From a bacterium (GTDB taxonomy: Bacteria > Actinomycetota > Acidimicrobiia > Spongiisociales > Spongiisociaceae): a stretch of DNA of 42,236 nt. This document shows, piece by piece, positions 27,108 through 40,505 of the stretch. The translations under genes were made by a program, and so were the position numbers. Within the stretch, counting starts at the first letter, position 1. Each line of letters begins with the position of its first letter. The DNA lies in contig JAPPGV010000136.1 in NCBI GenBank assembly GCA_028821235.1, positions 1 to 42,236 of the forward strand, in the 5' to 3' direction. The notes under the pieces are model-generated. The model did not search any database, was not told the DNA's origin, and saw only the letters and a program-made list of their open reading frames with translations.

Positions 27108-28456
27108 CGGACCGAGGAATCCTGGTCAGGGGCGGCTACGTCCTCACCTCTTCGATACCGGAGATGATCGAGGACGGAGCGGTTCGTATCGTCGGCGACC
27201 TGATCGACGAGGTCGGGACATGGACCGACCTAAGCGCCCGTCATCCGGACGATGAGGTTCAGGGAGACCGCCACTCCATCATCACACCCGGGTTCGTCAA
27301 CACCCACGGACACTTCTCGGAAGGCCTCTTCACAGGCATCGCCGAGGACTTCACCCTCTGGGAGTGGATCGAGGCGGTGATCAATCCCACTGCGCCCCAT
27401 CACGACCACCAGATGGCCTACGTGGGCACGCTCCTGGCCGGCATCCAGATGCTACGGACCGGAATCACCGTGGCGAGTGACATGTACGTCTGCGACCCGG
27501 CCGATCAACCTGTCACCCCGGGGATCGTCCGGGCGCTGGACGAGTTGGGGATGCGCGGCGTGGTCACCTTCGGCGCCGCCGACAGGAGGGGCGCTGCCGT
27601 GTCGGCGATTCTCGAAGAGCATGCCGCCCTACGGGAGGCATGCGAAGCGAGCCGCCTGTCCCGTTTCCGAGTCGGGATCGCCCTCATGGGCGCGCAATCG
27701 GAGGAACTCTTCGAGCATTCTGTGAGGCTCTCCGCAGCCCACGGAAGCCACATACACCTCCACGAGGTCCGCGAGGAGGTGACGGCGGTGAGGGCCGCCA
27801 CGGGGCGCTCACCCATCGAGCAGTGCGCTCGTCTGGGCCTGTTCGACGGTCCCACCATCGCCGCCCACTGCGTGTGGCTGGACGAGAGCGATCGAGACCT
27901 GCTGGCGGAGCACGGGGTGGGGGTGGCTCACAACCCGGTCTCGAACATGATCCTCGCATCCGGTGTGTGCCCGGTTCCCGCCCTACGCCGCCTTGGTGTG
28001 GCAGTCGGGATCGGGGTGGACGGGCCCGCCAGCAACGACAGCCAGAACATGCTCGAAGCGATCAAGATGGCAGTGCTCCTCCAGCGGGTCGACCGGCTCC
28101 AGGCGACCGCTCTGTCCGCTCGTGATGCGATGGCGATGGCCACGATCGAGGGCGCCCGAGCCCTGCGCCTCGATGGCGAACTCGGTTCCATAGAACCCGG
28201 CAAGCAGGCCGACCTGGTGGTATTCGACGGCTCCTCCCCGGCCTTGGCCAATATCCACGACCCGTTCCAGAAGGTCGTCTACTGCGCCGGTCCACGAGAG
28301 GTCTCCGACGTGTGGGTGGCAGGATCGAGGTCGATAGCGAACGGGAAGGTCACCAACGTCGATCCTGTGGACGTCGTAAACCGGTCGCGACCCCTGGCTG
28401 AGAAGCTGGCCCGCCTCGCGCAGCTCGGACAGCATTCCCTGCTGGCCCCTTCCTGA
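27104..28456 (+). CDS. TRZ/ATZ-type amidohydrolase (cytosine/S-adenosylhomocysteine/8-oxoguanine deaminase family)
   Basis: A 450-residue metal-dependent deaminase or hydrolase. H68 and H70 lie in PGFVNTHGHFSEG, further metal or acid residues in HIHLHEVREE (216-225), H255 in AAHCVWLD and D306 in VGIGVDGPASNDSQNM. This set matches SAH/MTA, guanine-type and atrazine-family enzymes that deaminate N-heterocycles. The GTG at 27104 overlaps the nitrilase stop (GTGA), so a longer frame from 26675 is rejected. It is paralogous to the enzyme at 40502-41887, with the same SNDSQNMLEA and VVYCAGP segments. Substrate unknown. Confidence 0.9.
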   Translation: MTDRGILVRGGYVLTSSIPEMIEDGAVRIVGDLIDEVGTWTDLSARHPDDEVQGDRHSIITPGFVNTHGHFSEGLFTGIAEDFTLWEWIEAVINPTAPHHDHQMAYVGTLLAGIQMLRTGITVASDMYVCDPADQPVTPGIVRALDELGMRGVVTFGAADRRGAAVSAILEEHAALREACEASRLSRFRVGIALMGAQSEELFEHSVRLSAAHGSHIHLHEVREEVTAVRAATGRSPIEQCARLGLFDGPTIAAHCVWLDESDRDLLAEHGVGVAHNPVSNMILASGVCPVPALRRLGVAVGIGVDGPASNDSQNMLEAIKMAVLLQRVDRLQATALSARDAMAMATIEGARALRLDGELGSIEPGKQADLVVFDGSSPALANIHDPFQKVVYCAGPREVSDVWVAGSRSIANGKVTNVDPVDVVNRSRPLAEKLARLAQLGQHSLLAPS

Positions 28457-28575
28457 GATCGAAACACCACCTAGCCCCAAGCATGGGGCGAACTCCATAG
28501 GCAAGTGATGGCAGCCCGTCCGTCAACTCCGCCCATCCGGCGGAAGGCTCTCAGCACCCTCAGGAGGGAGGGCGG

Positions 28576-29565
28576 TCAGGATCCTCCGTGGTGGTCATCA
28601 CCGCGGATGATCACGGTGCGGTGGGGGAAGGGCATCTCTATGCCTGCGGCATCGAGGGCTTCCTTGATGCGCAGGCGCAGCTCCCGCTCGGTCCTCCACT
28701 GCACGGAGGGCCGGGTCTTCGCCCTCACCCGGATGAAGATGCCGGACTCGGCGAGGTTCTGGACGCCCTTGACCTCGGGAGGCTCCGAGAGTTCGTCCTC
28801 ACCCCATTCCGGGTCTTCCCACATGTCCTGACCCGCTCGGCGGATCACCTCCATGGCCTCGCGGAGGTCGCAGTCGTACGGGACCTCCACATCGATCTGC
28901 GCCCGGGCCCACAGCTGCGAGTAGTTGGCCACGAAGTCGAGCTTGCCGTTGGGAACATTCCAGACGGTGCCCTGACGGGTACGGATCGAGGTGGACCGCA
29001 AACTTATCTTCTCCACGGTTCCCCGGCCCCGCCCGAAATCTATGTCATCTCCCACGCTATAGATGTCCTCGACCATCAGGAAGATCCCAGCCAAGAAGTC
29101 TCTGACCACCGACTGAGCACCGAAACCTATCGCTATACCGACCACGCCGGCGCCGGCGAGCAGGGGCCCGAGGTTGATATTGAGTTGGCCGAGAGCCAGC
29201 AGCGCCGTCAGCGCCCATATGGTGGTCTGGGCCACGCTGCGAAGAACCACCGCCAGCGTCTCGGCCCGGGCCTTTGCCCGGACCGTCTCCGCTTCCTCGT
29301 TGGCAGCCGGGTCCCGACCCACATCCCGCAGATCCGGCCTTCCTATCCGTTCGGTGAAGTGCTCGATCGCCCTCTTGACGGCCCTGGAGACCAACCACCC
29401 ACCCACCAGGATCAGGGCCAGGACCAACCCGCGTCCAAAGAGCCAAGCCGCTATCCCGGCCACGGCCTCGTTGCCGGTCCACTCGTAAACAGTGTCGCAA
29501 ACGAAGCTCGTACTGTCGGCGCACGCGGCCGATGAACTACCGGCTTGCTGGGCTATGGGAATCAT
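28576..29565 (-). CDS. MscS-family mechanosensitive channel
   Basis: A 329-residue inner-membrane channel that opens under membrane tension. Hydrophobic segments lie near 37-62, 107-130 and 133-160; the last includes the glycine/alanine-rich pore helix AGAGVVGIAIGFGAQSVVRD. The beta domain that follows has GRGTVEKISLRSTSIRT and NVPNGKL, and the C-terminal alpha-beta domain ends near FPHRTVII. It is convergent with the amidohydrolase gene. The 119-nt gap between them has a short GCCCC/GGGGC hairpin but no convincing terminator. Confidence 0.92.
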   Translation of the reverse strand: MIPIAQQAGSSSAACADSTSFVCDTVYEWTGNEAVAGIAAWLFGRGLVLALILVGGWLVSRAVKRAIEHFTERIGRPDLRDVGRDPAANEEAETVRAKARAETLAVVLRSVAQTTIWALTALLALGQLNINLGPLLAGAGVVGIAIGFGAQSVVRDFLAGIFLMVEDIYSVGDDIDFGRGRGTVEKISLRSTSIRTRQGTVWNVPNGKLDFVANYSQLWARAQIDVEVPYDCDLREAMEVIRRAGQDMWEDPEWGEDELSEPPEVKGVQNLAESGIFIRVRAKTRPSVQWRTERELRLRIKEALDAAGIEMPFPHRTVIIRGDDHHGGS

Positions 29566-29608
29566 GCGGCACCGCCACCTTGATCCAGGGATGTAACAGC
29601 CGACATCG

Positions 29609-29768
29609 CTACTCGGGCAGGCATCCTAGTGGTTTACGGTGCCACGGGGCGGACATGGCGCCGAGGATCCTCTTCAGGCTCTTGTTCCGTGACCTGCGGA
29701 TCAGGTCCTCGGGCGAACCCTGCTCCACCAACTCCCGCGTCCATGTAGATCATCCGGTCGGCAACGTC
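29609..29768 (-). pseudogene. Remnant of a GlnQ-type amino acid ABC transporter ATPase, C-terminal end, frameshifted
   Basis: Read leftward, 29768 down to about 29728 encodes DVADRMIYMDAGV. Skipping one G in GTTGGTGGAG restores the frame as VEQGSPEDLIRR, then SRNKSLKRILGAM, ending in TAG at 29609-29611. This matches the tail of polar amino acid transporter ATPases, which typically reads VADRVxFMDxGxIVEQGPPEE. No Walker A, signature or Walker B part is present upstream. It is therefore a 5'-truncated, frameshifted relic at the left edge of the lower-G+C segment. Confidence 0.6.
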
Positions 29769-29893
29769 CAGGTCGGTGGTAGACGAGTCGTTGATGGTTG
29801 TGCCGTCGATCCCCAACAGCTCCACCTCGCCTAGGCCTACCAACAACTCGCTCACGCGCGTAGGACCAGATTCCCCAGGGGTCCTCTTGTCTC
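29769..29893 (-). other. Decayed coding fragment, possibly the start of an ISL3-type transposase
   Basis: In frame with the relic, the minus strand encodes RDKRTPGESGPTRV and SELLVGLGEVELLGID. The ELLVGLxxVxLLGID pattern resembles the N-terminus of ISL3-family transposases; a decayed ABC ATPase N-terminus is the alternative. It passes directly into the GlnQ-like tail, so the join looks like an insertion or deletion scar. No intact transposase exists here. Confidence 0.3.
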
Positions 29894-29954
29894 GGATGTG
29901 GTTCTCAACACCCGATCATGGAGGGTCCGCCTCACTTCTGGTGGACTCCGACTT

Positions 29955-29967
29955 CCCCCCCCCCCCC
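29955..29967 (+). repeat. Homopolymer of 13 C upstream of the LLM oxidoreductase gene
   Basis: Thirteen consecutive C residues end 38 nt before the ATG at 30006. A TAGAGT hexamer (29976-29981), a weak -10 candidate, follows. Such tracts change length readily by slippage and could alter promoter spacing. That role is inference, and sequencing error in tract length is also possible. Confidence 0.9.
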
Positions 29968-30005
29968 TTCATAGGTAGAGTCTCAACAGGAGGCGAAATC
30001 TGAAC

Positions 30006-31040
30006 ATGTTGTCGGCACCCGAGACTGCCTTCACACTCAGCATCATGACGGACCTGCGTCCGGGTCCTGGATGTGAAGACTGGGTGACGCACTATGACCA
30101 GTGTCTGGAGGAGATCAGGTTCGCGGACTCACTTGGGTTTCGAACGGTTCGCATACCCGAGTCTCACGGGCACGACGATGGGATGGCAGCCGCTCCTCTG
30201 ACCGTCCTGGCAGCAGTCGCTGCGGTGACCAACACCATAAGGCTGATGACGTATGCCATCCCATTGGCTCTACACAATCCGCGGATGATTGCCGAACAGG
30301 CTGCTGTCGTTGATCTCTTGTCTTCAGGTCGGCTGGAACTCGGTGTTGGAGCAGGCGGTCGGACTGCCCAGTTCGACGTCTTCGGTGTTTCTCCATCTAC
30401 GAGAGGCCGAAGGGCGGAGAGTGCCCTTCGGGCCCTCCGGACAGCACTCACTACCGGAGTACTGTATGACGGTAAGGATGGACAGCCGGTCCCGATTAGT
30501 CCTCGCCCCGCTCAGGACAACCTGCCCATCTACTACGGAGGCCTCTCCTCGCCTGCTGTGCACCGGGCCGTGCGGATGGCGGACGGCTGCCTTCCATACG
30601 ACTACATAGCTCCAGAGCGGAACCTCCCAGCATTCTACGCCGAGAAGTTGATCCCCGCCCTACAACACTCCGGAAGGGACCTCAGTAGTTTCTTTTTCGG
30701 AGTAGGCGTCGTCCTTTGGGCGAGCGACGACCCTGAGCGCGCGTGGGACACAACGATTCAGCCGGCCCTGGCCTACCGGCAGCAGAAGTATCTTGAGTGG
30801 TCAGGACATGAAGATGCCCTTGAGGGCATGACTTCAAAGGCGCTCAGGCAGGGCGTACTGGTGGGTACACCGGAGGATCTTGCCCTGAGACTACGTGCGA
30901 CCCACGAGAAGGCTCCCTGGCATGATTTGGCCTTCTGGCATCGTCTTCCTGGTGTGCCCCACGAAGACGCCATGGAACATCTCGAGTTGACCTCACGCCG
31001 ACTGATACCGCTGCTTGATGATAACGGATCCGGCGGTTAG
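30006..31040 (+). CDS. LLM-class flavin-dependent oxidoreductase (luciferase-like monooxygenase)
   Basis: A 344-residue luciferase-fold protein that uses FMNH2 or F420. Its blocks are typical: GFRTVRIPESHGHDDG after strand 2, AVTNTIRLMTYAIPLALHNPRMIAEQAAVVDLLSSGRLELGVGAG, and NLPIYYGGLSSPAVHRA. AGGAGG precedes the ATG at 30006. The gene overlaps the convergent permease gene by 4 nt (31037-31040). It is the only rightward gene in the lower-G+C segment; it may oxidise the compound imported by the facing operon, but this is inference. Confidence 0.9.
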   Translation: MLSAPETAFTLSIMTDLRPGPGCEDWVTHYDQCLEEIRFADSLGFRTVRIPESHGHDDGMAAAPLTVLAAVAAVTNTIRLMTYAIPLALHNPRMIAEQAAVVDLLSSGRLELGVGAGGRTAQFDVFGVSPSTRGRRAESALRALRTALTTGVLYDGKDGQPVPISPRPAQDNLPIYYGGLSSPAVHRAVRMADGCLPYDYIAPERNLPAFYAEKLIPALQHSGRDLSSFFFGVGVVLWASDDPERAWDTTIQPALAYRQQKYLEWSGHEDALEGMTSKALRQGVLVGTPEDLALRLRATHEKAPWHDLAFWHRLPGVPHEDAMEHLELTSRRLIPLLDDNGSGG

Positions 31041-31840
31041 GTGCGGTCAGGGGATGATATCGATCGCCGGTACCGAAGATAGGCGATAGTCAACACCGCC
31101 GCGATCACATAGACGATGAGGCTTGACACGGCTGCCAATGTGGGTCGGATTTGTGTCTCAATGAACTCGAACATGCGCAGAGGCAGTGTCTGTGATCTCG
31201 CTCCGCCGATGAAGACCACGAGCACCACTTCATCCCACGAAATGAGGAATGAGAAGACGGCAGAAGCCACGAGAGCGGGAGTGATCCCTGGAAGTACGAC
31301 CATCCGCCAGGCCCGCCGGTTCGTCGCGCCGAGGCTGAGTGCTGCCTCGAACGGACCGAAGTCGACGGCTCTGAGCGCACTCTCGATGAGAAGCACGGCA
31401 AACGGTAGGGCCAGGATCGTGTGAGCAACGACCAGCCCTGGGAACGTGCGGAGAAGCCCCACCCTCACGTATATATCGAAGACCGCGACAGCTGTGACTA
31501 TCGGTGGAACGATGAGCGGCGCGACGAGAAGACCGCGCACCAGGAATGCCCCCTTCTTGATATATCGGGTGAGGGCAATGGCTGCGAGCAAGCCAAGCGC
31601 CGTCGAGGTAATGGCGACTGCCACACCAAGTCTGATACTCAACCAAGCAGCACTAGTCCAGCGCACGTCGCCGAAGAAGTCTTGGTACCACCTAAGGGAA
31701 AGCCCGTCCGGCGGAAAGTCGAAGACTGTCCCCGGTGTGAAGGACAACGGAATCACAACCAGAATCGGCAGGATCAGGAAGGCGACCACAGTGTTGCCCA
31801 CAACGGCCAATACGCGTTGCCCTATCTTGCCCAGCCTCAA
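31037..31840 (-). CDS. ABC transporter permease (PotC type)
   Basis: A 267-residue membrane protein with six predicted segments, the first at about 9-32. The coupling motif is ALSLGATNRRAWRMVVLPGITPALVAS, the EAA loop of spermidine/putrescine/iron-type permeases, followed by SFLISWDEVVLVVFIGG. It overlaps the companion permease by ATGA (31837-31840) and its stop overlaps the LLM gene. With the PotA-like ATPase and the lipoprotein at 36381 it forms one importer. Confidence 0.92.
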   Translation of the reverse strand: MRLGKIGQRVLAVVGNTVVAFLILPILVVIPLSFTPGTVFDFPPDGLSLRWYQDFFGDVRWTSAAWLSIRLGVAVAITSTALGLLAAIALTRYIKKGAFLVRGLLVAPLIVPPIVTAVAVFDIYVRVGLLRTFPGLVVAHTILALPFAVLLIESALRAVDFGPFEAALSLGATNRRAWRMVVLPGITPALVASAVFSFLISWDEVVLVVFIGGARSQTLPLRMFEFIETQIRPTLAAVSSLIVYVIAAVLTIAYLRYRRSISSPDRT

Positions 31841-32715
31841 CGCCTGCTACCTCCAACTACCACACTCTTGGGATCGAACACCTTGGTGAGCAAAGCGAAG
31901 AGCGCAAGGGTTACGATCAGGAGGATCATGCTCATTGCGCTGGCGATCCCCCATTTGAAGAGACGTATCTGCGTCTGCACATATATGGGAATGGTGATAT
32001 CTCCCCCTCCGCCCAAGACAGCTGGAAGAATGAAGAAACCCATAGACATGATCAGGACCAGCAATGACCCGGCAATCAACCCAGGGCTAATGAGGGGTAG
32101 GTAGATCCGTACGAATGTCTGCCGAGGACGCGCCCCGAGGCTGTCCGCACTCTCGACAAGCGATTCATCTACTCCGCTCATCGACGAGTAGAGAACAAGG
32201 ATCATGAATGGCAGCATCACGTGAATCATGCCGATGAGAATAGCCCGCGTGTTGAAAAGGAGTTCGAGTGGTTCCTGAACCAGTCCGATAGCGGCCAACG
32301 AGTCGTTTATTAGTCCTCTTCTCCCAAGAATCACTGTCCACGCATAGAGCCGGGCGAGAATCGCCACCCATAGCGGAGCAGTGCTCAGAACCAGGAACAG
32401 CTGCGCTCTTCTCTTCTCGAGGGTCGTGATGTACCACGCGACAGGAAATCCGAGTACTAGACAACCCACAGTTGTTAGGAGCGATACCTCAACTGTCAGT
32501 CTCAGGATGTTGCGAAAGGCCCGTGACGAAAATATCTCAACGTAGTTGCTTATGCCTGGAGCCGGGTCGGAGACGCTTCTCACGAACACACCTACGAGCG
32601 GATAGGCAAAAAAGAGCAGAACGACTACCAGGCACGGCAACAATAGAGCCAGGCCAACAAGGGAATCCCGGTGTGGACGCCGCCGAGTCCGTCTTTGCCA
32701 CCCGCGTTTCTTCAT
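31837..32715 (-). CDS. ABC transporter permease (PotB type)
   Basis: A 292-residue membrane protein with a basic N-terminus (MKKRGWQRRTRRRPHRD) and about six membrane segments. SADSLGARPRQTFVRIYLPLISPGLIAGS is the EAA loop. The ATG at 32715 overlaps the ATPase stop as ATGA (32712-32715), so the longer frame to 32763 is not used. It pairs with the PotC-like permease to form the membrane channel. Confidence 0.92.
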   Translation of the reverse strand: MKKRGWQRRTRRRPHRDSLVGLALLLPCLVVVLLFFAYPLVGVFVRSVSDPAPGISNYVEIFSSRAFRNILRLTVEVSLLTTVGCLVLGFPVAWYITTLEKRRAQLFLVLSTAPLWVAILARLYAWTVILGRRGLINDSLAAIGLVQEPLELLFNTRAILIGMIHVMLPFMILVLYSSMSGVDESLVESADSLGARPRQTFVRIYLPLISPGLIAGSLLVLIMSMGFFILPAVLGGGGDITIPIYVQTQIRLFKWGIASAMSMILLIVTLALFALLTKVFDPKSVVVGGSRR

Positions 32716-33845
32716 AGTTGCCCGTCTGGCGGGATGAGGACAATCGTCTGTTCCTCGTCCCAATGGAGCCAGACAGTTGAGCCTTCGGCGGGTGCCGACA
32801 GTGATGAACTTGACTCAACGATGAAGCGGCGACCATCTCTGAGACGGGACAGGATTCGATAGGAGTTTCCGTGGAACGACACCAACTCTACGGTCGCCTG
32901 CAAGCGCGGGCTATCCATCGGCTCTTCTTGAATCAGTACCATCTCCGGTCGAATGCCACAAAGCACGCGGTCTCCTTCCCCCAGCGACCGGCTCAGATAT
33001 GGCGGCACCATCAGGGTGTTGCCTTCAGCTATTTCGATGACGAGTCCGTGACCGGACTCACGCAAGACGCCCTCCATCTCGTTGATGTCTCCAACGAAGT
33101 CCGCAACGAAATGCTCCGTCGGCGAGCGGTAGACGGTTTCTGGGACTCCCAATTGTCGTACAGTTCCTCCATGCATGACCACAATTCGATCTGACATCGC
33201 GAAGGCTTCTTCCTGGTCATGAGTGACGTACACCGCCGTGAAGCCAATCTCCTTCTGAAGGAGTCTGATGGAGTTCTGTAGGTACTGGCGCAATCGCTTA
33301 TCTAGGGAGCCAAGAGGTTCGTCCATCAAGACAACCGTGGGGTTAAAGACCAGCGCTCTTGCCAGCGACACTCGCTGTTGCTGGCCGCCACTCAGTTCTC
33401 TGGGAAGACGGGAACCCAGCCCTTGGAGGTTGACCAGATCTAGGGCTCGCTCGACATCTCGATCGATCTGGTCAGAGGAGATCCCGCGAATCTGAAGGGG
33501 AAACGCGACATTGTCCTGGACTGTCATGTGGGGAAACAGGGCGTAGTTCTGGAATACGAATCCCATTCCGCGCTCCCGTGCCGGTAGAAGTGTCATGTCA
33601 ACACCCCCGACGATCACGCTCCCCTCATCAGGAATCGTTAGTCCACCAACGATCCTGAGGAGAGTCGTCTTGCCCGATCCGCTAGGGCCCAGAAGGGTGA
33701 GAAACTCACCCGGTTCGACAGTCAGATCGAACTCATCGAGGACCAGCACATCCCCAAAACTGTGCCGAACACCCCTTATCTCAATCCTGGCTCCCGTCGA
33801 AGGCTGAAGGGAGCGCGACTCCGTCGAGGGTATGGACTCGCTCAT
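32712..33845 (-). CDS. ABC transporter ATP-binding protein (PotA type)
   Basis: A 377-residue ATPase with Walker A GPSGSGKTT (53-61), signature LSGGQQQRVSLARA, Walker B VVLMDEPLGSLD and YVTHDQEEAFAMSD. The C-terminal third is a TOBE-like domain (CGIRPEMVLI onward). This size and layout fit polyamine, iron and thiamine importers. Its ATG at 33845 overlaps the M20 stop as ATGA. It drives the two downstream permeases. Confidence 0.94.
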   Translation of the reverse strand: MSESIPSTESRSLQPSTGARIEIRGVRHSFGDVLVLDEFDLTVEPGEFLTLLGPSGSGKTTLLRIVGGLTIPDEGSVIVGGVDMTLLPARERGMGFVFQNYALFPHMTVQDNVAFPLQIRGISSDQIDRDVERALDLVNLQGLGSRLPRELSGGQQQRVSLARALVFNPTVVLMDEPLGSLDKRLRQYLQNSIRLLQKEIGFTAVYVTHDQEEAFAMSDRIVVMHGGTVRQLGVPETVYRSPTEHFVADFVGDINEMEGVLRESGHGLVIEIAEGNTLMVPPYLSRSLGEGDRVLCGIRPEMVLIQEEPMDSPRLQATVELVSFHGNSYRILSRLRDGRRFIVESSSSLSAPAEGSTVWLHWDEEQTIVLIPPDGQL

Positions 33846-35167
33846 GCGGCCTTGGCCGCATCGGCGTTGACCTCGCCGAGGAAGTTGAAGATCATTTCGG
33901 CGGCGATCCCAAGGCTGCGGATCGGCACCCTTTCATCGTGACCCGCAATAGTGGCCCGATCCTCGAGGGTGATAGGCGCTGTGTGACACCCGTAGGCGGG
34001 AATGTCTCGCGCTCGGAAGATCCGCAAGTCGGTATAGCCCGCAGAGACCACCGGAACCATCGCCGCGCCTGGGACAGTCGCCGCAAGGGCTCGTTCCAGC
34101 GCTCGGGGTACCAACCCCCTTGGGTCAGAAGCACCGCTGACGGCTCGAAAGGTCTCAGTCACACTGACTCCAAACTCGGCGATCACGGTCTCCAGATCGG
34201 CAATGAACTGGCTCGGATCCGTGTCTGGCAATAGTCGACAATCGAGAGTGGCCTTCGCCGACGATGGCACAACACTCGGTTCCATTCCTGCTTCCACAAT
34301 CGTGATGCTGACTGTGTCTGTGAACATCGCCGAAAACGCAGGAGATTCTGCAATCGCCATCTCGACTCTGCTCCGGTCGGACTCAGACGCACGCATCATG
34401 ACCTCGATGAACTCCTCCTGTATGTGGCCCGCGTGGCGTGGAGATTGAATAGACCCGATGGCTGCAAGGGCACCTACGAGTCTGGTCACAGCAGTCGACT
34501 CACGTGGAACCGAGGAATGCCCACCTGCACCTTGAGCTTCCACAACAAGCCAAAGAGCAGTTTTTTCTTGTGGACAGTACGTGAAAACAGGATCCTTGCT
34601 GCCCAGCAGCGTTGGATAGCTGAAACTACCTTCTCCTAAGACCCAGGCACAGTCCAAGATATCGGAGCGATGCTCCTCAATCCAGCGGATGCCCGCCTTG
34701 CCGCCACGCGTCTCGTCAGCTGCGGCCAACAGCATGACGTCGACATGAGGAGACGGGTTCTGACGCGCAAACTCTGCCAAACCCACAGCATGTGCTGCTA
34801 CCAGAGTCTTCAGGTCTATCGCTCCGCGTCCCCACAGATAACCACTCTGAACGGTGGGGGTAAAGGGAGAAGTGGACCAGAACGAACGCTGCACAGGTGA
34901 CACGTCGAGATGGGACAACAGAAGTCCCGGCGGCCCCGCACTTGCCGAAACGCCCCTCATGCGGGCAACAACGCTGCTGCGGCTGCTGCTGGACTCGATC
35001 AACTCGACATCAAGCCCTTCGTTCAACAGAAACCGCATCAGAGGTCGTGCCGCTCGATGCTCGTTGCCAGGAGGGTTCGATGTGTCTTGCCTGATCAACT
35101 CTTCGACAAGGCCCAGCGTCCTCTCTTGGAAGCTGCTTGGTCGCGTATTGAGAGGCTCCTCAGCCAT
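33842..35167 (-). CDS. M20-family peptidase with a changed metal-site residue
   Basis: A 441-residue hydrolase of the ArgE/DapE/carboxypeptidase family. H86 and D88 lie in LLSHLDVSP, D118 in GRGAIDLK, and the C-terminal metal histidine in YGCHTAPITLED. The usual acid pair DEE appears as D151-E152-T153 (AADETRGG). The general base is thus kept, but the second glutamate, a zinc ligand in carboxypeptidase G2, is Thr. The ATG at 35167 follows closely on AGAGG. It sits between an alcohol dehydrogenase and the transporter genes, with a probable promoter in the 103-nt gap upstream. It likely trims an N-acyl or peptide bond of the imported compound. Confidence 0.88.
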   Translation of the reverse strand: MAEEPLNTRPSSFQERTLGLVEELIRQDTSNPPGNEHRAARPLMRFLLNEGLDVELIESSSSRSSVVARMRGVSASAGPPGLLLSHLDVSPVQRSFWSTSPFTPTVQSGYLWGRGAIDLKTLVAAHAVGLAEFARQNPSPHVDVMLLAAADETRGGKAGIRWIEEHRSDILDCAWVLGEGSFSYPTLLGSKDPVFTYCPQEKTALWLVVEAQGAGGHSSVPRESTAVTRLVGALAAIGSIQSPRHAGHIQEEFIEVMMRASESDRSRVEMAIAESPAFSAMFTDTVSITIVEAGMEPSVVPSSAKATLDCRLLPDTDPSQFIADLETVIAEFGVSVTETFRAVSGASDPRGLVPRALERALAATVPGAAMVPVVSAGYTDLRIFRARDIPAYGCHTAPITLEDRATIAGHDERVPIRSLGIAAEMIFNFLGEVNADAAKAA

Positions 35168-35216
35168 CCTCTAGCATCCTGGTCGCTCTTCTCATCGAGA
35201 CGTCGCTCTTCAGAGG

Positions 35217-35245
35217 ATTGTACTCCGCTCTCAACAGACCGTCAG
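35217..35245 (-). promoter_or_regulatory. Predicted internal promoter before the M20-transporter genes
   Basis: On the minus strand CTGACG (35240-35245, 4 of 6) and TACAAT (35217-35222, 5 of 6) are separated by 17 bp. It lies in the A+T-richer gap between the alcohol dehydrogenase stop and the M20 start, about 50 nt before the ATG. It could let the hydrolase and transporter genes be expressed apart from the lipoprotein gene. Confidence 0.45.
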
Positions 35246-35270
35246 ACGACAAGATTGCTACCAATCCCGT

Positions 35271-36350
35271 TTACCATGTAGTGATTACTGAGAACCCGAC
35301 GTTCTCGAAGCTTGACATCCCGTCAAGTACAGAATTCACATTCTCAAGACTTACTTCTTGGCCAATGAGGGACGCCGGTTGGATCAGCCCCTTGTCGACC
35401 ATCCTCAGTAGATCGGGATAGCGCCGTCGCGGCATGCCATGACAGCCAGCGATCCGGATCTCTTGGGCAACGATGATGTCTACGGGCATCGCGACCAGAC
35501 CTCGCTCCTTTGCCGTGGTAAGTCCGATCTGAACATGACGCCCACGCACGCGTAGCGTGCCGATTGAGTTCTGGACCGTCTCCTCTATACCGAGAGCGTC
35601 GATCGTGACTTCAACACCACCGTTGGTGAACTCCTTGATTGCTGAGACTGGGTCCTCGCTCGAGCTATTGACACTGAAGCTGGCGCCAACCTCATGGGCC
35701 TTATCGAGCTTCACATCGTCGATGTCAACAGCAATGACCTCGGCCCCCAAGGCAGAGGCGATCATCACTGCTGACAGACCAACCCCGCCGCATCCATAAA
35801 CAGCGACCCGCTCTCCTGGCCGTAACTGTGCAATCTCGACCGTTCCATGAAATGCTGTCATGAATCGACAGCCAAGGGTGCTCGCGGCAAGTGAATCGAC
35901 ACTGTCCGGCAACACAAGAAGGTTCACTTCCGCACGTGGGACAGGTACATACTCTGCGAATCCGCCTTGGAGCGAAGATCCAGGAAACTGGGGCCGCTTA
36001 CAGAGGTTCTGAAAGCCCGCCTGACACCGATTGCAAAGCCCGCATGAGTAGTGGAACGGCGCAACAACTCGATTGCCGACATGAAGATTCCGGACCTCGC
36101 CGCCCACCTCCACAACAACCCCAGCCATCTCGTGCCCGAGTATCAAAGGCAACCGTGGGTGCACCCCCAACCAATCCCAGTGTCCTTTCCAGATGTGCCA
36201 GTCTGTCCTGCACACGCCGCAAGCATCAAGCTTGACGACCACGCCATCGGGGGGAACTCGTGGAAAATCAACTTCGGATATCGCGAGCGGCTCGTATTGC
36301 CCGACCATCAGAGCCGCTCGCATTGCCTTCTTCAACGTGGCACTACGCAT
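35271..36350 (-). CDS. Zinc-dependent alcohol dehydrogenase (MDR superfamily)
   Basis: A 359-residue NAD(P)-dependent dehydrogenase. Catalytic zinc ligands are C47 in CGVCRTDWH and the H73-E74 pair in LGHEMAG; the structural zinc site has C103, C106, C109 and C117. The cofactor site is VAVYGCGGVGLSAVMIA followed by the acidic VDIDD, suggesting NAD. The start is uncertain: the ATG at 36350 has no ribosome site, while an internal ATG at 36323 is preceded by AAGAAGG. It follows the lipoprotein gene by 30 nt. The alcohol or aldehyde substrate probably derives from the imported compound. Confidence 0.92.
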   Translation of the reverse strand: MRSATLKKAMRAALMVGQYEPLAISEVDFPRVPPDGVVVKLDACGVCRTDWHIWKGHWDWLGVHPRLPLILGHEMAGVVVEVGGEVRNLHVGNRVVAPFHYSCGLCNRCQAGFQNLCKRPQFPGSSLQGGFAEYVPVPRAEVNLLVLPDSVDSLAASTLGCRFMTAFHGTVEIAQLRPGERVAVYGCGGVGLSAVMIASALGAEVIAVDIDDVKLDKAHEVGASFSVNSSSEDPVSAIKEFTNGGVEVTIDALGIEETVQNSIGTLRVRGRHVQIGLTTAKERGLVAMPVDIIVAQEIRIAGCHGMPRRRYPDLLRMVDKGLIQPASLIGQEVSLENVNSVLDGMSSFENVGFSVITTW

Positions 36351-36380
36351 TCATAACTGCGTAATGAAACCTCTTTCTTC

Positions 36381-37730
36381 CTAGTGGCCGCTTTGCCACT
36401 CCGCCCAAGCCTCTTCGACCTCGGGTCGGTCGGAGAAGAAGAATGGATCGGCCAGTCCGGCAGCCGCTCCGTATTGCGGTCCCCACTCGGATCCAAAGTC
36501 GTCGAGGCAACCCGGGAATGGATCAGCGTTCATGACGACGCCGTAGCCGATTGCGTTCAGTGCCGCACACTGCCGGGAGGGCAGCATGGAGAGCGCATAG
36601 ACGGACAGGGCGGCATCGTAGTTGGGAGCGCCCTTGGGAATGGCAAACGGTCCACCGTTGACGATGCTTCCACCCCAAGTAATCGTCACCGGCAGTCCGG
36701 GTTCCTGCTTGATGCGAAGTGCTGGTCGACCGTTGAACGTGATGCCAAGGTCGCATTGGCCATCCAGCAGGAACTGAATGGAATCAGCGCCGCTGTTTGC
36801 CCAGACGATCTCGTCGTAGATGTCATCAAGTCGGTCGAAAGCTGCCTGTAGCCCCTCTTCAGTGGCTAGTACGTCGTAGACCTCGTCCCACGTAGCACCG
36901 TTGGCCATAGCGGCGAACTCGAGGTTGCCGCCGAACTGTGCGAAGTTGAACGCGCACCGTTTGCCGGGGAACTGCTCTACGTCGAAGAAGTCAAGTGTCG
37001 AGTCGGGTTGGGAGCCTTCCGCAAACACGTCGGTGTTGTATTGCAGGACGATTCCGAAGTCTGAGGCACCCACGTAGTAGCCCTGCGATGGAATAGCTCC
37101 TCCTGAGCCACCCCTGACGAGGTTGCCTTCTTCATCCGAGTAGAAGGCGACGTCGGGGAGGGCAGCAACGTCGAAGAGGCTGTAATCAATAGGCTCCCAG
37201 TAGCCTTCTAATGCAAGACGCTCAGCCGTTCCGTAGTCCAAGATGGCGAACACGTCCCACTCTGTGGCGCCCGAGTCGACTTGCGCCTGCACCGCTGCAG
37301 TAGAGAGGTCCAGCCCTGGGGCCGACTCGATCACACTCCAACCGGTTATTGCCTCCCAATCGTCGAGAAAGGCTTCGCTCCACCCTTCGTGCACTTCACC
37401 ACCCGCATCGACCCAGACAAGCTCCCCGGGTCCCTGATCCCGCACGTCAACGAGAAGTTGCAACAGATTGTCCGGAATGTCCTCGGTCAGGGGGTGAACC
37501 TCCCCCGGAAGCCTCTCCAGAAGAGAATCACGCAATGACATGCTTTCTGTGGTCGCTGGGGACGCCTCTGTCGGCTCCGGTGAATCGACTTGGGTCGTCG
37601 TCGGCGACTCGGACACACTCGTGTCGTCGCTGTCATCTGCGCCACAGGCGGATGCCATAAGCGCTATCACTACCCCCAGGGCGAGTACCCGGGCCCTGCT
37701 CTTCGCTGGTCGACTCCCCGTTTTCCCCAT
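36381..37730 (-). CDS. PotD-like ABC transporter substrate-binding lipoprotein
   Basis: A 449-residue lipoprotein. The signal ends LMASACG, with the lipidated cysteine near residue 29, and an acidic Thr/Ser/Pro linker follows. The mature domain is of the spermidine/putrescine or iron-type binding fold: WSEAFLDDWEAITGWSV, the VLQYNTDVF block, FPGKRCAFNF and a late AIPKGAPNYDAALS segment. GGGAGGG precedes the ATG at 37730, and a promoter lies 54-82 nt upstream. It is first in its operon, ahead of the dehydrogenase, and pairs with the transporter genes at 31037-33845. Ligand unknown. Confidence 0.92.
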   Translation of the reverse strand: MGKTGSRPAKSRARVLALGVVIALMASACGADDSDDTSVSESPTTTQVDSPEPTEASPATTESMSLRDSLLERLPGEVHPLTEDIPDNLLQLLVDVRDQGPGELVWVDAGGEVHEGWSEAFLDDWEAITGWSVIESAPGLDLSTAAVQAQVDSGATEWDVFAILDYGTAERLALEGYWEPIDYSLFDVAALPDVAFYSDEEGNLVRGGSGGAIPSQGYYVGASDFGIVLQYNTDVFAEGSQPDSTLDFFDVEQFPGKRCAFNFAQFGGNLEFAAMANGATWDEVYDVLATEEGLQAAFDRLDDIYDEIVWANSGADSIQFLLDGQCDLGITFNGRPALRIKQEPGLPVTITWGGSIVNGGPFAIPKGAPNYDAALSVYALSMLPSRQCAALNAIGYGVVMNADPFPGCLDDFGSEWGPQYGAAAGLADPFFFSDRPEVEEAWAEWQSGH

Positions 37731-37751
37731 GAGTACCCTCCCTCAAATCAA

Positions 37752-37771
37752 CGCACGCGCCAACGCGTGCG
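37752..37771. promoter_or_regulatory. Perfect 8-bp inverted repeat between promoter and start of the PotD-like gene
   Basis: CGCACGCG (37752-37759) and CGCGTGCG (37764-37771) form a perfect inverted repeat with a CCAA loop. It sits just downstream of the predicted -10 and before the ribosome site, a typical place for a repressor operator or a 5' hairpin. The sequence is G+C-only in an A+T-rich patch. No regulator gene lies in this module. Confidence 0.5.
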
Positions 37772-37783
37772 CCGAATCTCAAA

Positions 37784-37812
37784 AGGGTACACCATTTTAT
37801 GAGAAAAGTCAA
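37784..37812 (-). promoter_or_regulatory. Predicted promoter of the PotD-like operon
   Basis: On the minus strand TTGACT (37807-37812, 5 of 6) and TACCCT (37784-37789, 3 of 6) are separated by 17 bp, in an A+T-rich patch. Transcription would start near 37776 and run into the palindrome at 37752-37771. The remaining 37813-37962 shows no gene. Confidence 0.5.
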
Positions 37813-37962
37813 ACGCGACTAGTCGTCAGAATTGGAAACTCATCGGAATTCAGTGGGGAGTGACCGTGCCTAGCGGACCCTTAGCTACTGAGATCCGTGT
37901 CCGGTACATATCACTAGTAACCAACAGCTAGGAAAGGAGCGCGGGTCTCAGTGGTGAGGACC

Positions 37963-38934
37963 TCATGGCCTGACGCCTATGTAGACCGTGAGGGGATCTT
38001 CGTACGGCAACCGCCTGATCCTCTCGAACCCCGCCCCGGCCAGCATGGACTCCAGGGCTTTCCTCGAATGGGCCGCTCCACCGGTCTCGACCCTCATCAT
38101 GACATCGAAGAGGGCGCCGAACGCTCCCGGACCGCTGTCACCGGCGAAGTCGTTGACCACGACGTGGCCGCCCGGTGCGATCGCCGACCGCACCCTGCGC
38201 AGCAGTTCCACCGCCTGGTCCTCGGCGAGGTCATGGATCAAATGGGACACCAGGGCCGCGTCCATCGATCCGGGCAGGACCCCGCACGAAGGGTGCTCGA
38301 AGAGGTCCACCCCGACCACCTCCACTCCCGTGCCCTCCAGCTCCTCGCTTGCCCAGCCGGCAACGAGGGGGTAGTCGACCAGGGTGACATGACAGCCGGC
38401 CTCGGAGAGCGGGCGTGCATAGCTTCCGAGACCGCCGCCCACGTCCAGGACCCGCTTCCCGGGAGCAAGCTCGCCGAGCTCATGGAGCGGCGGTCCGCCG
38501 ATCCTCGCCAACACATCGAGCGCGTCCAGAAACGCCCGGGCTTGCTCCGGATTCCGGTCGAGATGGGATCGCCAGGGTTCCATGACCGGGCGCCCTGCCG
38601 TCACCACCTCATCCAGGCAGGACCAGGCCCCGGCGAACACTGCTTCCTTAGCCACTACGAGGCCCATCTCCCCGCCCGGGCCCAGGCGCTCCGCGGTGTA
38701 GGGCGTGGCGGCGAACCGGTCGCCCTCCCTGCGCAGCAGGCCGATCCCGACCAACGCCTCCAGCAAGGCCCCGAGGTTGGAGGCATCCACCGCCAACTCC
38801 GCTGCCAGGTCACCGGCCGACCGGGGAACGCGCCCGAGAACCGAGAACACGCCCAGCCGATGGGCGGTCGTGATCGCCGCGGCAGGCTGGTACCCGGTGA
38901 TCAGGTCGATGAGCTGCCAGTCGTTGTCGATCAT
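37963..38934 (-). CDS. SAM-dependent O-methyltransferase (plant-type/hydroxyindole OMT family)
   Basis: A 323-residue methyltransferase. The N-terminal winged-helix dimerisation domain (TTAHRLGVFSVL through LLEALVGIGLLRREGDRFAATPYT) is followed by the SAM site VLDVGGGLGSYARPL, then HLIHDLAEDQAVELLRRVRSAIAPGG and a final GFERIRRLPYEDPLTVYIG. The domain order matches small-molecule O-methyltransferases acting on hydroxyl or phenolic groups. The ATG at 38934 overlaps the preceding gene's stop as ATGA (38931-38934), so the longer frame to 38964 is not used. It is last in a four-gene operon and may methylate the oxidase product; substrate unknown. Confidence 0.9.
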   Translation of the reverse strand: MIDNDWQLIDLITGYQPAAAITTAHRLGVFSVLGRVPRSAGDLAAELAVDASNLGALLEALVGIGLLRREGDRFAATPYTAERLGPGGEMGLVVAKEAVFAGAWSCLDEVVTAGRPVMEPWRSHLDRNPEQARAFLDALDVLARIGGPPLHELGELAPGKRVLDVGGGLGSYARPLSEAGCHVTLVDYPLVAGWASEELEGTGVEVVGVDLFEHPSCGVLPGSMDAALVSHLIHDLAEDQAVELLRRVRSAIAPGGHVVVNDFAGDSGPGAFGALFDVMMRVETGGAAHSRKALESMLAGAGFERIRRLPYEDPLTVYIGVRP

Positions 38935-40505
38935 CGCTTCCTCAGGGAACGGTACATTCGCCAACCGCGGACCAGCGTCGACATGGTGGACGGCTCAGCC
39001 TGCCGGGAACGCTTGCGGCCCAAGTCGTCGAGCACGGTGAGCGCGGCGTTCCTGCCCGGCACACCCGACAAGCCTCCGCCCGGGAAGGTGCCGGCCCCCG
39101 TCAGGTAGAGCCAGGGCACGGCAGTCCGGTAGCCCCGGCCGGCGCCGGGCCGGAGCGAGAACATCTGGTCGATGGTCATGTCGATGTGGTTGGGATTGCC
39201 GAACCTGGCGCCCGTGCGCCTCTCCCAGTCGACGGGACCGGCCACCCGCTTGTCGACGATCCGTTCCCGTAGCGAGACGCCCGTGATGGCCTGGTAGCCG
39301 TCGATCACCCGCTCCGCATGCCTCGACACCTCCGCCCCGGTCCATTCCCCATGCCTGATGCGGGCCGGAACGAAGGTCGACAACCAGGCGACGCCGCCTC
39401 CCTCGGGCGCGGCCGACGGGTCCAGAGCCGACGGAGAGGCCCAGAGCATGGCCGGTTCCGACGGGCAGATGCCGGCGGCGATCTCGCCGAACGACCGGGC
39501 CATGGAACCGGGGTGTTGCTGCAGCAGCCAGATCGCCTCGGGGTGACCGAACTGACCGGGCTCGGCCTCGGCGGACAGCGCCAGATCCACCTTGAACTCG
39601 GCAACGTTGAGGGATCCGCTGGTCACCATCCGGGCCGCCTCGTCGAGTTCGGGCACGGGCTCGGCCATAAGCCGGGCGGTGCGCGCCACGTCGAGCGCCG
39701 AGACCACCATGTCGAAGGTGGCCGTATCGCTCGAGGCAGTGGTGACCCTTGACTTGGCGCCCGACCGATGGATCGACGCCACCGCAGCGTCGGTGAGGAT
39801 CTTCCCGCCGGCCGACTCGATGGCACCGACCAGGGCATTGACCAGCTGGACGGAGCCACCGATGGGGCGCCCGGCCCCGTGGCCGTGCGAACCGGCCAGC
39901 AGCAGGCCGAACAGGCCCGTGCCGGGCAGCCACGGGGGAAGCTGGCTGAACGCCCCGTACATGGTGAGGGCAGCGGCCAAGTGCGGATCGGCGATGTGGG
40001 CGCCGACCACCTTCTCGGCCGAAGCCAGGACCGTCCGGAGCGGGTCGAACCCGGCTATGGGTCCTAGCTCGGCGATCTGGGCCAGCGAAGGCGGGGTGGC
40101 GAAGGCGTCCATCATTCCCATCAGACCGGTTCCCAGCTCCGATAGCCGCCGGTAGCCCTCTACGTCTCGGGAGTCCAGGCCGCCGAAACCCGCCAAGGTG
40201 GTTGACAGGTCCCTGTGGAACAGCAACCGCGTACCGTCCCCGAAGCCTGCCCCGACCGACACCTCCCGGAAGGCGTACTCCAGGCCGAACCGGGCCAGAC
40301 CCAGCTCTTCAGCGATGCCGAGGATCATGCCATGATCGATGGCGCCCCGCTCCAGGCGGTAGCCGGAAGCAAGCTGGTCGGTCCAGATACACCCGCCCGC
40401 CGTCGCGTTGGCCTCGAAAACGGTAACGTCGAGGCCGGCTCTGGCAAGGAAGCATGCGCAGACCAGGCCGTTGTGGCCCCCTCCGATGACCGCCACGCGG
40501 GTCAT
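38931..40505 (-). CDS. PYROXD2-like/phytoene desaturase-type FAD oxidoreductase
   Basis: A 524-residue flavoprotein. The FAD fold opens VAVIGGGHNGLVCACFLARAG, with VFEANATAGGCIWTD next. The GGGHNGL variant is typical of PYROXD2-like proteins, which are related to carotenoid desaturases. The C-terminal FAD block YLTGAGTFPGGGLSGVPGRNAA is complete. No other carotenoid genes are present, so carotenoid desaturation is unlikely. Its ATG at 40505 overlaps the amidohydrolase stop as ATGA (40502-40505), and its stop overlaps the methyltransferase start. Confidence 0.9.
   Translation of the reverse strand: MTRVAVIGGGHNGLVCACFLARAGLDVTVFEANATAGGCIWTDQLASGYRLERGAIDHGMILGIAEELGLARFGLEYAFREVSVGAGFGDGTRLLFHRDLSTTLAGFGGLDSRDVEGYRRLSELGTGLMGMMDAFATPPSLAQIAELGPIAGFDPLRTVLASAEKVVGAHIADPHLAAALTMYGAFSQLPPWLPGTGLFGLLLAGSHGHGAGRPIGGSVQLVNALVGAIESAGGKILTDAAVASIHRSGAKSRVTTASSDTATFDMVVSALDVARTARLMAEPVPELDEAARMVTSGSLNVAEFKVDLALSAEAEPGQFGHPEAIWLLQQHPGSMARSFGEIAAGICPSEPAMLWASPSALDPSAAPEGGGVAWLSTFVPARIRHGEWTGAEVSRHAERVIDGYQAITGVSLRERIVDKRVAGPVDWERRTGARFGNPNHIDMTIDQMFSLRPGAGRGYRTAVPWLYLTGAGTFPGGGLSGVPGRNAALTVLDDLGRKRSRQAEPSTMSTLVRGWRMYRSLRKR

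Follow-up and report, generated by a model that had tools for sequence, protein, structure and literature searches.

A glnQ-type gene tail joined to an ISL3-family insertion sequence remnant at the left edge of a probably acquired transporter island in a bacterium of the Spongiisociaceae

Results

Genes and composition of the locus

The window analysed here, 42,236 nucleotides long, is a whole contig (G000:C136) of a genome assembled in 162 contigs; the closest records with the same locus are metagenome-assembled genomes, and the bacterium is presumably associated with sponges. An operon and a luciferase-like monooxygenase gene, the latter preceded by AGGAGG at 29988-29993, lie between an mscS-type channel gene and an O-methyltransferase gene (Table 1). 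The G+C content of this island is 57.7% (29984-37933) as against 67.0% to its left and 68.9% to its right, and segmentation places the low-G+C segment at 29481-38004; as a preliminary description of the DNA had stated, the odd stretch beside mscS forms the left limit of this segment. Import of a polyamine-like or another organic nitrogen compound is the probable role of the island genes. Among the four genomes that carry the island, 339 of the 433 variable sites in seven island genes fall at third codon positions, and selection on these genes appears to be purifying. The island binding protein was found in four of 395 genomes of the class, our own included (E<=1e-60), with no second island copy or intact composite unit among these genomes, and a plasmid collection contained 674 records with a binding protein, all of less than 60% identity.

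A search of the window with ARAGORN found no tRNA, so that no tRNA attachment site was seen. Between 29500 and 30100 no sigma-70-like promoter was detected, and the plus strand has one terminator-like site (29869-29883; shuffle mean 0.1). The literature, judged by titles, yielded none concerning this locus.

Table 1. Coordinates of the features at the variable site, in positions of the window
Feature	Position	Strand	Basis or remark
mscS-type mechanosensitive channel gene, left flank of variable site	28576..29565	minus	Pfam MS_channel domains
glnQ-type ABC ATPase C-terminal tail, ~44 codons	29642..29774	minus	frame broken near 29733-29737
Joint between glnQ tail and ISL3 piece	29775..29803	minus	aligned among island-bearing genomes
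ISL3-family IS remnant, transposase-start end	29804..29976 (right limit approximate)	minus	DNA similarity
Run of 13 C inside IS remnant	29955..29967	plus	5 C in three relatives
Luciferase-like monooxygenase gene, first island gene on scar side	30006..31040	plus	Pfam Bac_luciferase 3e-47
Island operon	31037..37730	minus	substrate-binding protein, Zn dehydrogenase, M20 peptidase, PotA-like ATPase, PotB-like and PotC-like permeases
ISL3-family IS remnant, transposase-3' terminal inverted repeat	37837..37868 (right limit approximate)	plus	outer end toward island
O-methyltransferase gene, right flank of variable site	37963..38964	minus	Pfam Methyltransf_2 1.1e-17

The GlnQ-type tail

Read on the minus strand from 29774, the tail begins with LDVADRMIYMDAG and continues with ELVEQGSPEDLIRRSRNKSLKRILGAMSAP in another frame. 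The break sits in a G-run and is caused by a short indel. It had been described as a one-base shift; the change of frame is confirmed, the single base is not, since the window differs from genome G008 by more than one base at this point, with a changed frame as the net result. The stop codon of the tail is kept in three relatives and read through in the window.

The proposed identity as a GlnQ C-terminus was supported by several searches, and the similarity is real. The top four PDB matches of the G008 relic were polar amino acid ABC ATPases (E=3e-5 to 1.8e-4), among them 4u00 (3e-5), 4yms (1e-4) and ArtP (1.6e-4), and both window pieces read jointly matched TcyN, EhuA and GlnQ models near the model ends (E=4e-5 to 9e-5). 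Against a five-protein GlnQ profile the G008 relic reached 28.3 bits, the top of 5000 shuffles 8.9 bits; the second window piece alone reached 8.2 bits, with a smaller margin over its top shuffle at 4.3 bits (HMMER reported scores for 3376 and 2384 of the 5000 shuffles, respectively). With the same profile, unjoined six-frame segments of 29560-30005 gave 8.4 and 5.4 bits and every other segment <= -2.2. A Pfam search of the relic gave no match; the matches came from NCBIfam and PDB sequences. The tail is thus recognizable as the C-terminal region of a GlnQ-type ABC ATPase. In six frames of 29560-30010 no ATPase sequence lies ahead of it, Walker A, signature and Walker B being absent, which identifies the stretch as a relic and not as a GlnQ-type member gene. 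The preliminary reading that the preceding sequence is not ATPase holds in all four island-bearing genomes, even with an open frame; neither of the outcomes named as refuting that reading, a lack of GlnQ similarity or an intact gene after sequence correction, was observed.

Matches to the tail at E<=1e-4 were present in 52 of the 395 class genomes, the best four being the present locus. Outside this locus they were at most 48% identical, and no glnQ donor was found among these genomes; the best-scoring intact match was a GlnQ protein with 46% identity. Four donor-candidate loci were inspected and contain, by reading, polar amino acid-type ABC ATPases, one of which tested as GlnQ-like.

The ISL3 remnants at both island edges

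The piece that adjoins the tail was assigned to the ISL3 family by DNA similarity and encodes only about 17 N-terminal residues, that is, the first transposase codons from 29855, together with upstream sequence. Repeats with 76-86% identity to 29804 to ~29958 occur elsewhere in six relatives (G001, G002, G005, G007, G011 and G013), the G001 piece matching the window at E=2e-47. In G011 the repeat is the end of a complete ISL3 reference element of ~1447 bp, present in two copies that are 99.9% identical over 1448 aligned bases. Its frame is itself broken, its pieces matching NF033550 (1e-18), HTH_Tnp_ISL3 (1.3e-8) and DDE_Tnp_ISL3 (2.5e-25); besides these transposase domains it has terminal inverted repeats and, at both copies, 8-bp direct repeats. 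An 8-bp target duplication is typical of the ISL3 family. With these repeats and the G011 element, the earlier assignment to an ISL3-type N-terminus proved correct and its extent too short, as the remnant runs past 29893 to ~29976. The last ~30 bp including the terminal repeat are missing from it, the terminus being expected near 29977. Searches of the 59 genomes and the fetched loci with the joint between tail and IS piece gave matches confined to the four island-bearing genomes.

Solo ISL3 transposase-start ends with near-identical surroundings were observed in G007 and G002 (L038 5001-5159, L039 5001-5158). Their truncation points lie at almost the same codon as that of the window remnant. 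In G013, both ends of a 14.4-kb contig (G013:C150, L035) are ISL3 transposase-start ends, which suggests several near-identical copies in that genome.

A matching ISL3 terminus at the right island edge is new here and had no place in the preliminary description. The G011 reference gave a second short match to the window by alignment, at 37839-37863 (E=3e-4), and copies of the same genus improve it: the end of the ISL3 copy of G007 matches at E=2e-8 and shares 27 of 28 bases with the window; with G008 it shares 28 of 29. This relic was missed in a pattern search with the G011 terminus (<=3 mismatches, 0 sites); it was found in all four island-bearing genomes. Because its CATCGG...TTCAG differs from the CTTCGG...GAG of the other IS end, it can be assigned an orientation: the two remnants run in the same direction, and the island lies between their outer ends. 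Neither IS copy has kept its outer end in any of the four genomes. The window holds two end fragments and no complete self-mobile ISL3 element; the two IS copies flank the cargo as remnants only, with no intact transposase at the island edges. The pair resembles a composite transposon in decay, or else two IS copies in direct repeat.

States of the site in related genomes

The same chimera was found in place, with ~91-92% DNA identity, in three of the 58 relatives searched (59 genomes with our own). The site itself was compared within the family, at 11 loci of relatives (L022-L032) selected by a match to the mscS region; of the remaining family members, G009 and G014 match on short contigs only and G012 gave no match. 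Three of the 11 loci (G003, G006 and G008) are colinear with the window over 10 kb, at 95.6-95.9% identity. In two others (G007 and G004) the methyltransferase and mscS-side flanks are at most ~90 bp apart, and in another two (G005 and G002) the site is filled by a different amino-acid transporter cassette in which no ISL3 piece is detectable, so that ISL3 is not needed for filling the site. That sister species have the site empty or otherwise filled is a further point absent from the preliminary description, and the island is a replaceable insertion between the O-methyltransferase gene and mscS.

Similarity to the tail extends, without the island, up to 29731 in G005 and 29699 in G002. The preliminary description had looked to relatives with an intact glnQ at this locus. 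A GlnQ-type ATPase gene is indeed intact in the G005 cassette (L025 10834-11601), with a similar one in G002; both are away from mscS and their tails only 28-29% identical to the relic, and hence they are not its intact form.

In G001 a truncated methyltransferase copy adjoins mscS, with an amino-acid transporter cassette beyond. The 3' part of the methyltransferase gene stands on either side of this cassette (L029 2570-3205 and 9623-9742), a duplication pattern as after single-crossover integration, the second copy being at the contig end. Between the flanks of G010 and G013, which belong to another genus of the family, lies a regulator gene named GntR-like by sequence reading (L030 11.8-12.7 kb, L032 2593-3486). 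The methyltransferase was not found in the fetched G011 stretch.

Discussion

A GlnQ tail fused to an ISL3 end, as a chimera common to four genomes, agrees with the scar of insertion and deletion that the preliminary description had proposed. In our view the stretch is likely a neutral scar that borders an acquired island on its left, probably has no function of its own, and arose as follows. A glnQ-type gene would formerly have ended beside mscS; the part of the ATPase tail present without the island in G005 and G002 suggests that the tail is older, and may be common to them by descent or exchange. Later ISL3-family activity would have led to two partial, directly oriented IS copies around the ~7.9-kb operon: a composite transposon may have delivered the operon, or the IS copies may have inserted separately and then undergone recombination and deletion. 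The greater part of glnQ and of each IS copy might then have been deleted, so that on the left the glnQ tail now abuts an ISL3 5' end and on the right one ISL3 terminal repeat survives. The relics, their orientation, the frame damage and the distribution of island and tail among the species are observed; the order of the events and the part of ISL3 copies in the arrival of the island are inferred, and the island may have come by composite transposition or by recombination. With the outer end of each IS copy lost, no target duplication shows joint movement of the unit. The missing island-facing terminus of the left copy and the ~30 bp of the right relic, which the G011 pattern search did not hit, speak against this account, as do the lack of a second island copy or intact composite unit among the 395 genomes and the G005 and G002 cassette with no detectable ISL3 piece.

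The several states of one site in the genus, one of them a cassette free of ISL3 traces, lend some weight to a different history, in which the island came by homologous recombination between the mscS and methyltransferase flanks, as an allele swap, and the ISL3 pieces are debris from before or after that event which did not move it. The flank does recombine between species, as indicated by G007, which is identical to the window over 1,059 bases (28252-29311; L026/L054) where other nearby bins have 71 to 97% identity, and by discordant trees: in the mscS tree G007 stands next to the window (support 0.939), in disagreement with the right-flank tree, in which the four island genomes stand apart from all others (support 1.000; G001 with only 636 bases). 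The 1,059-base identity reflects either very recent interspecies exchange or assembly cross-talk. Same-orientation ISL3 relics at both edges are, however, hard to obtain by chance, the more so as a whole-element ISL3 search of the window's own genome returned only four matches, the left relic among them, and we regard the allele swap as a serious but less probable account.

The chimeric frame (ISL3 start codon plus GlnQ tail; in G008, 71 residues) is very improbable as a new small protein gene kept under selection. The whole frame, from the ISL3 ATG to the GlnQ stop, is open in G008 only, one of four genomes, the tail alone being in frame in G006 as well, and eight of the 13 variable sites of the second GlnQ piece are third positions; these two points, the tail in frame in two of the four genomes and the third-position share of the second piece, also speak against pure decay. 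Yet the frame is broken in the other three genomes, by frame-changing gaps in the G-run at 29733 (window, G003) and at 29826 (G006), and over the whole relic the third-position share is just 15 of 30. Gaps of 1-3 bases among the four island genomes occur at 29733 (in two patterns), 29757 and 29826, with a gap of 8 columns in the C-run; a 16-base gap in mscS in this comparison is an artefact of the starting point of one sequence. Hardly any likelihood is left for the view that an intact gene was corrupted by a sequencing or assembly error, for which the position of the break within a G-run and the nearby 13 C, unique to the window among the four genomes, might be cited, because three relatives, separately assembled, carry the same chimera in place and none has ATPase sequence before the tail.

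The decayed scar as the preferred reading explains an odd stretch that annotators would otherwise leave blank, delimits an acquired operon on both sides, and, together with the sister genomes, shows transporter cassettes of uncultured bacteria coming and going at one chromosomal site. It is ordinary genome debris and does not suggest a new mechanism; with the matching ISL3 terminus on the right and the empty sites it becomes a readable though incomplete record of the arrival of the island. A broader, tentative proposal, which we think somewhat doubtful as a whole, is that the methyltransferase-mscS interval is the exchange site of the genus for nutrient-transporter cassettes and that an ISL3 composite transposon, its IS copies since decayed, brought one of these cassettes in from beyond the class.

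Compared with the GlnQ, TcyN, EhuA and ArtP polar amino acid ABC ATPases, the relic matches the C-terminal ~44 residues; unlike them, it lacks Walker A, signature and Walker B, and its frame is broken in the window. The G011 copies share with ISL3 insertion sequences (the IS204/IS1001/IS1096/IS1165 group in Pfam) the transposase domains, GGCTC-type inverted ends and 8-bp direct repeats, whereas the window has two end fragments without a transposase gene. With a composite transposon of directly repeated IS copies the locus shares an operon placed between two same-orientation IS remnants; it differs in that both IS copies are ruined and neither an outer target duplication nor a second location was found.
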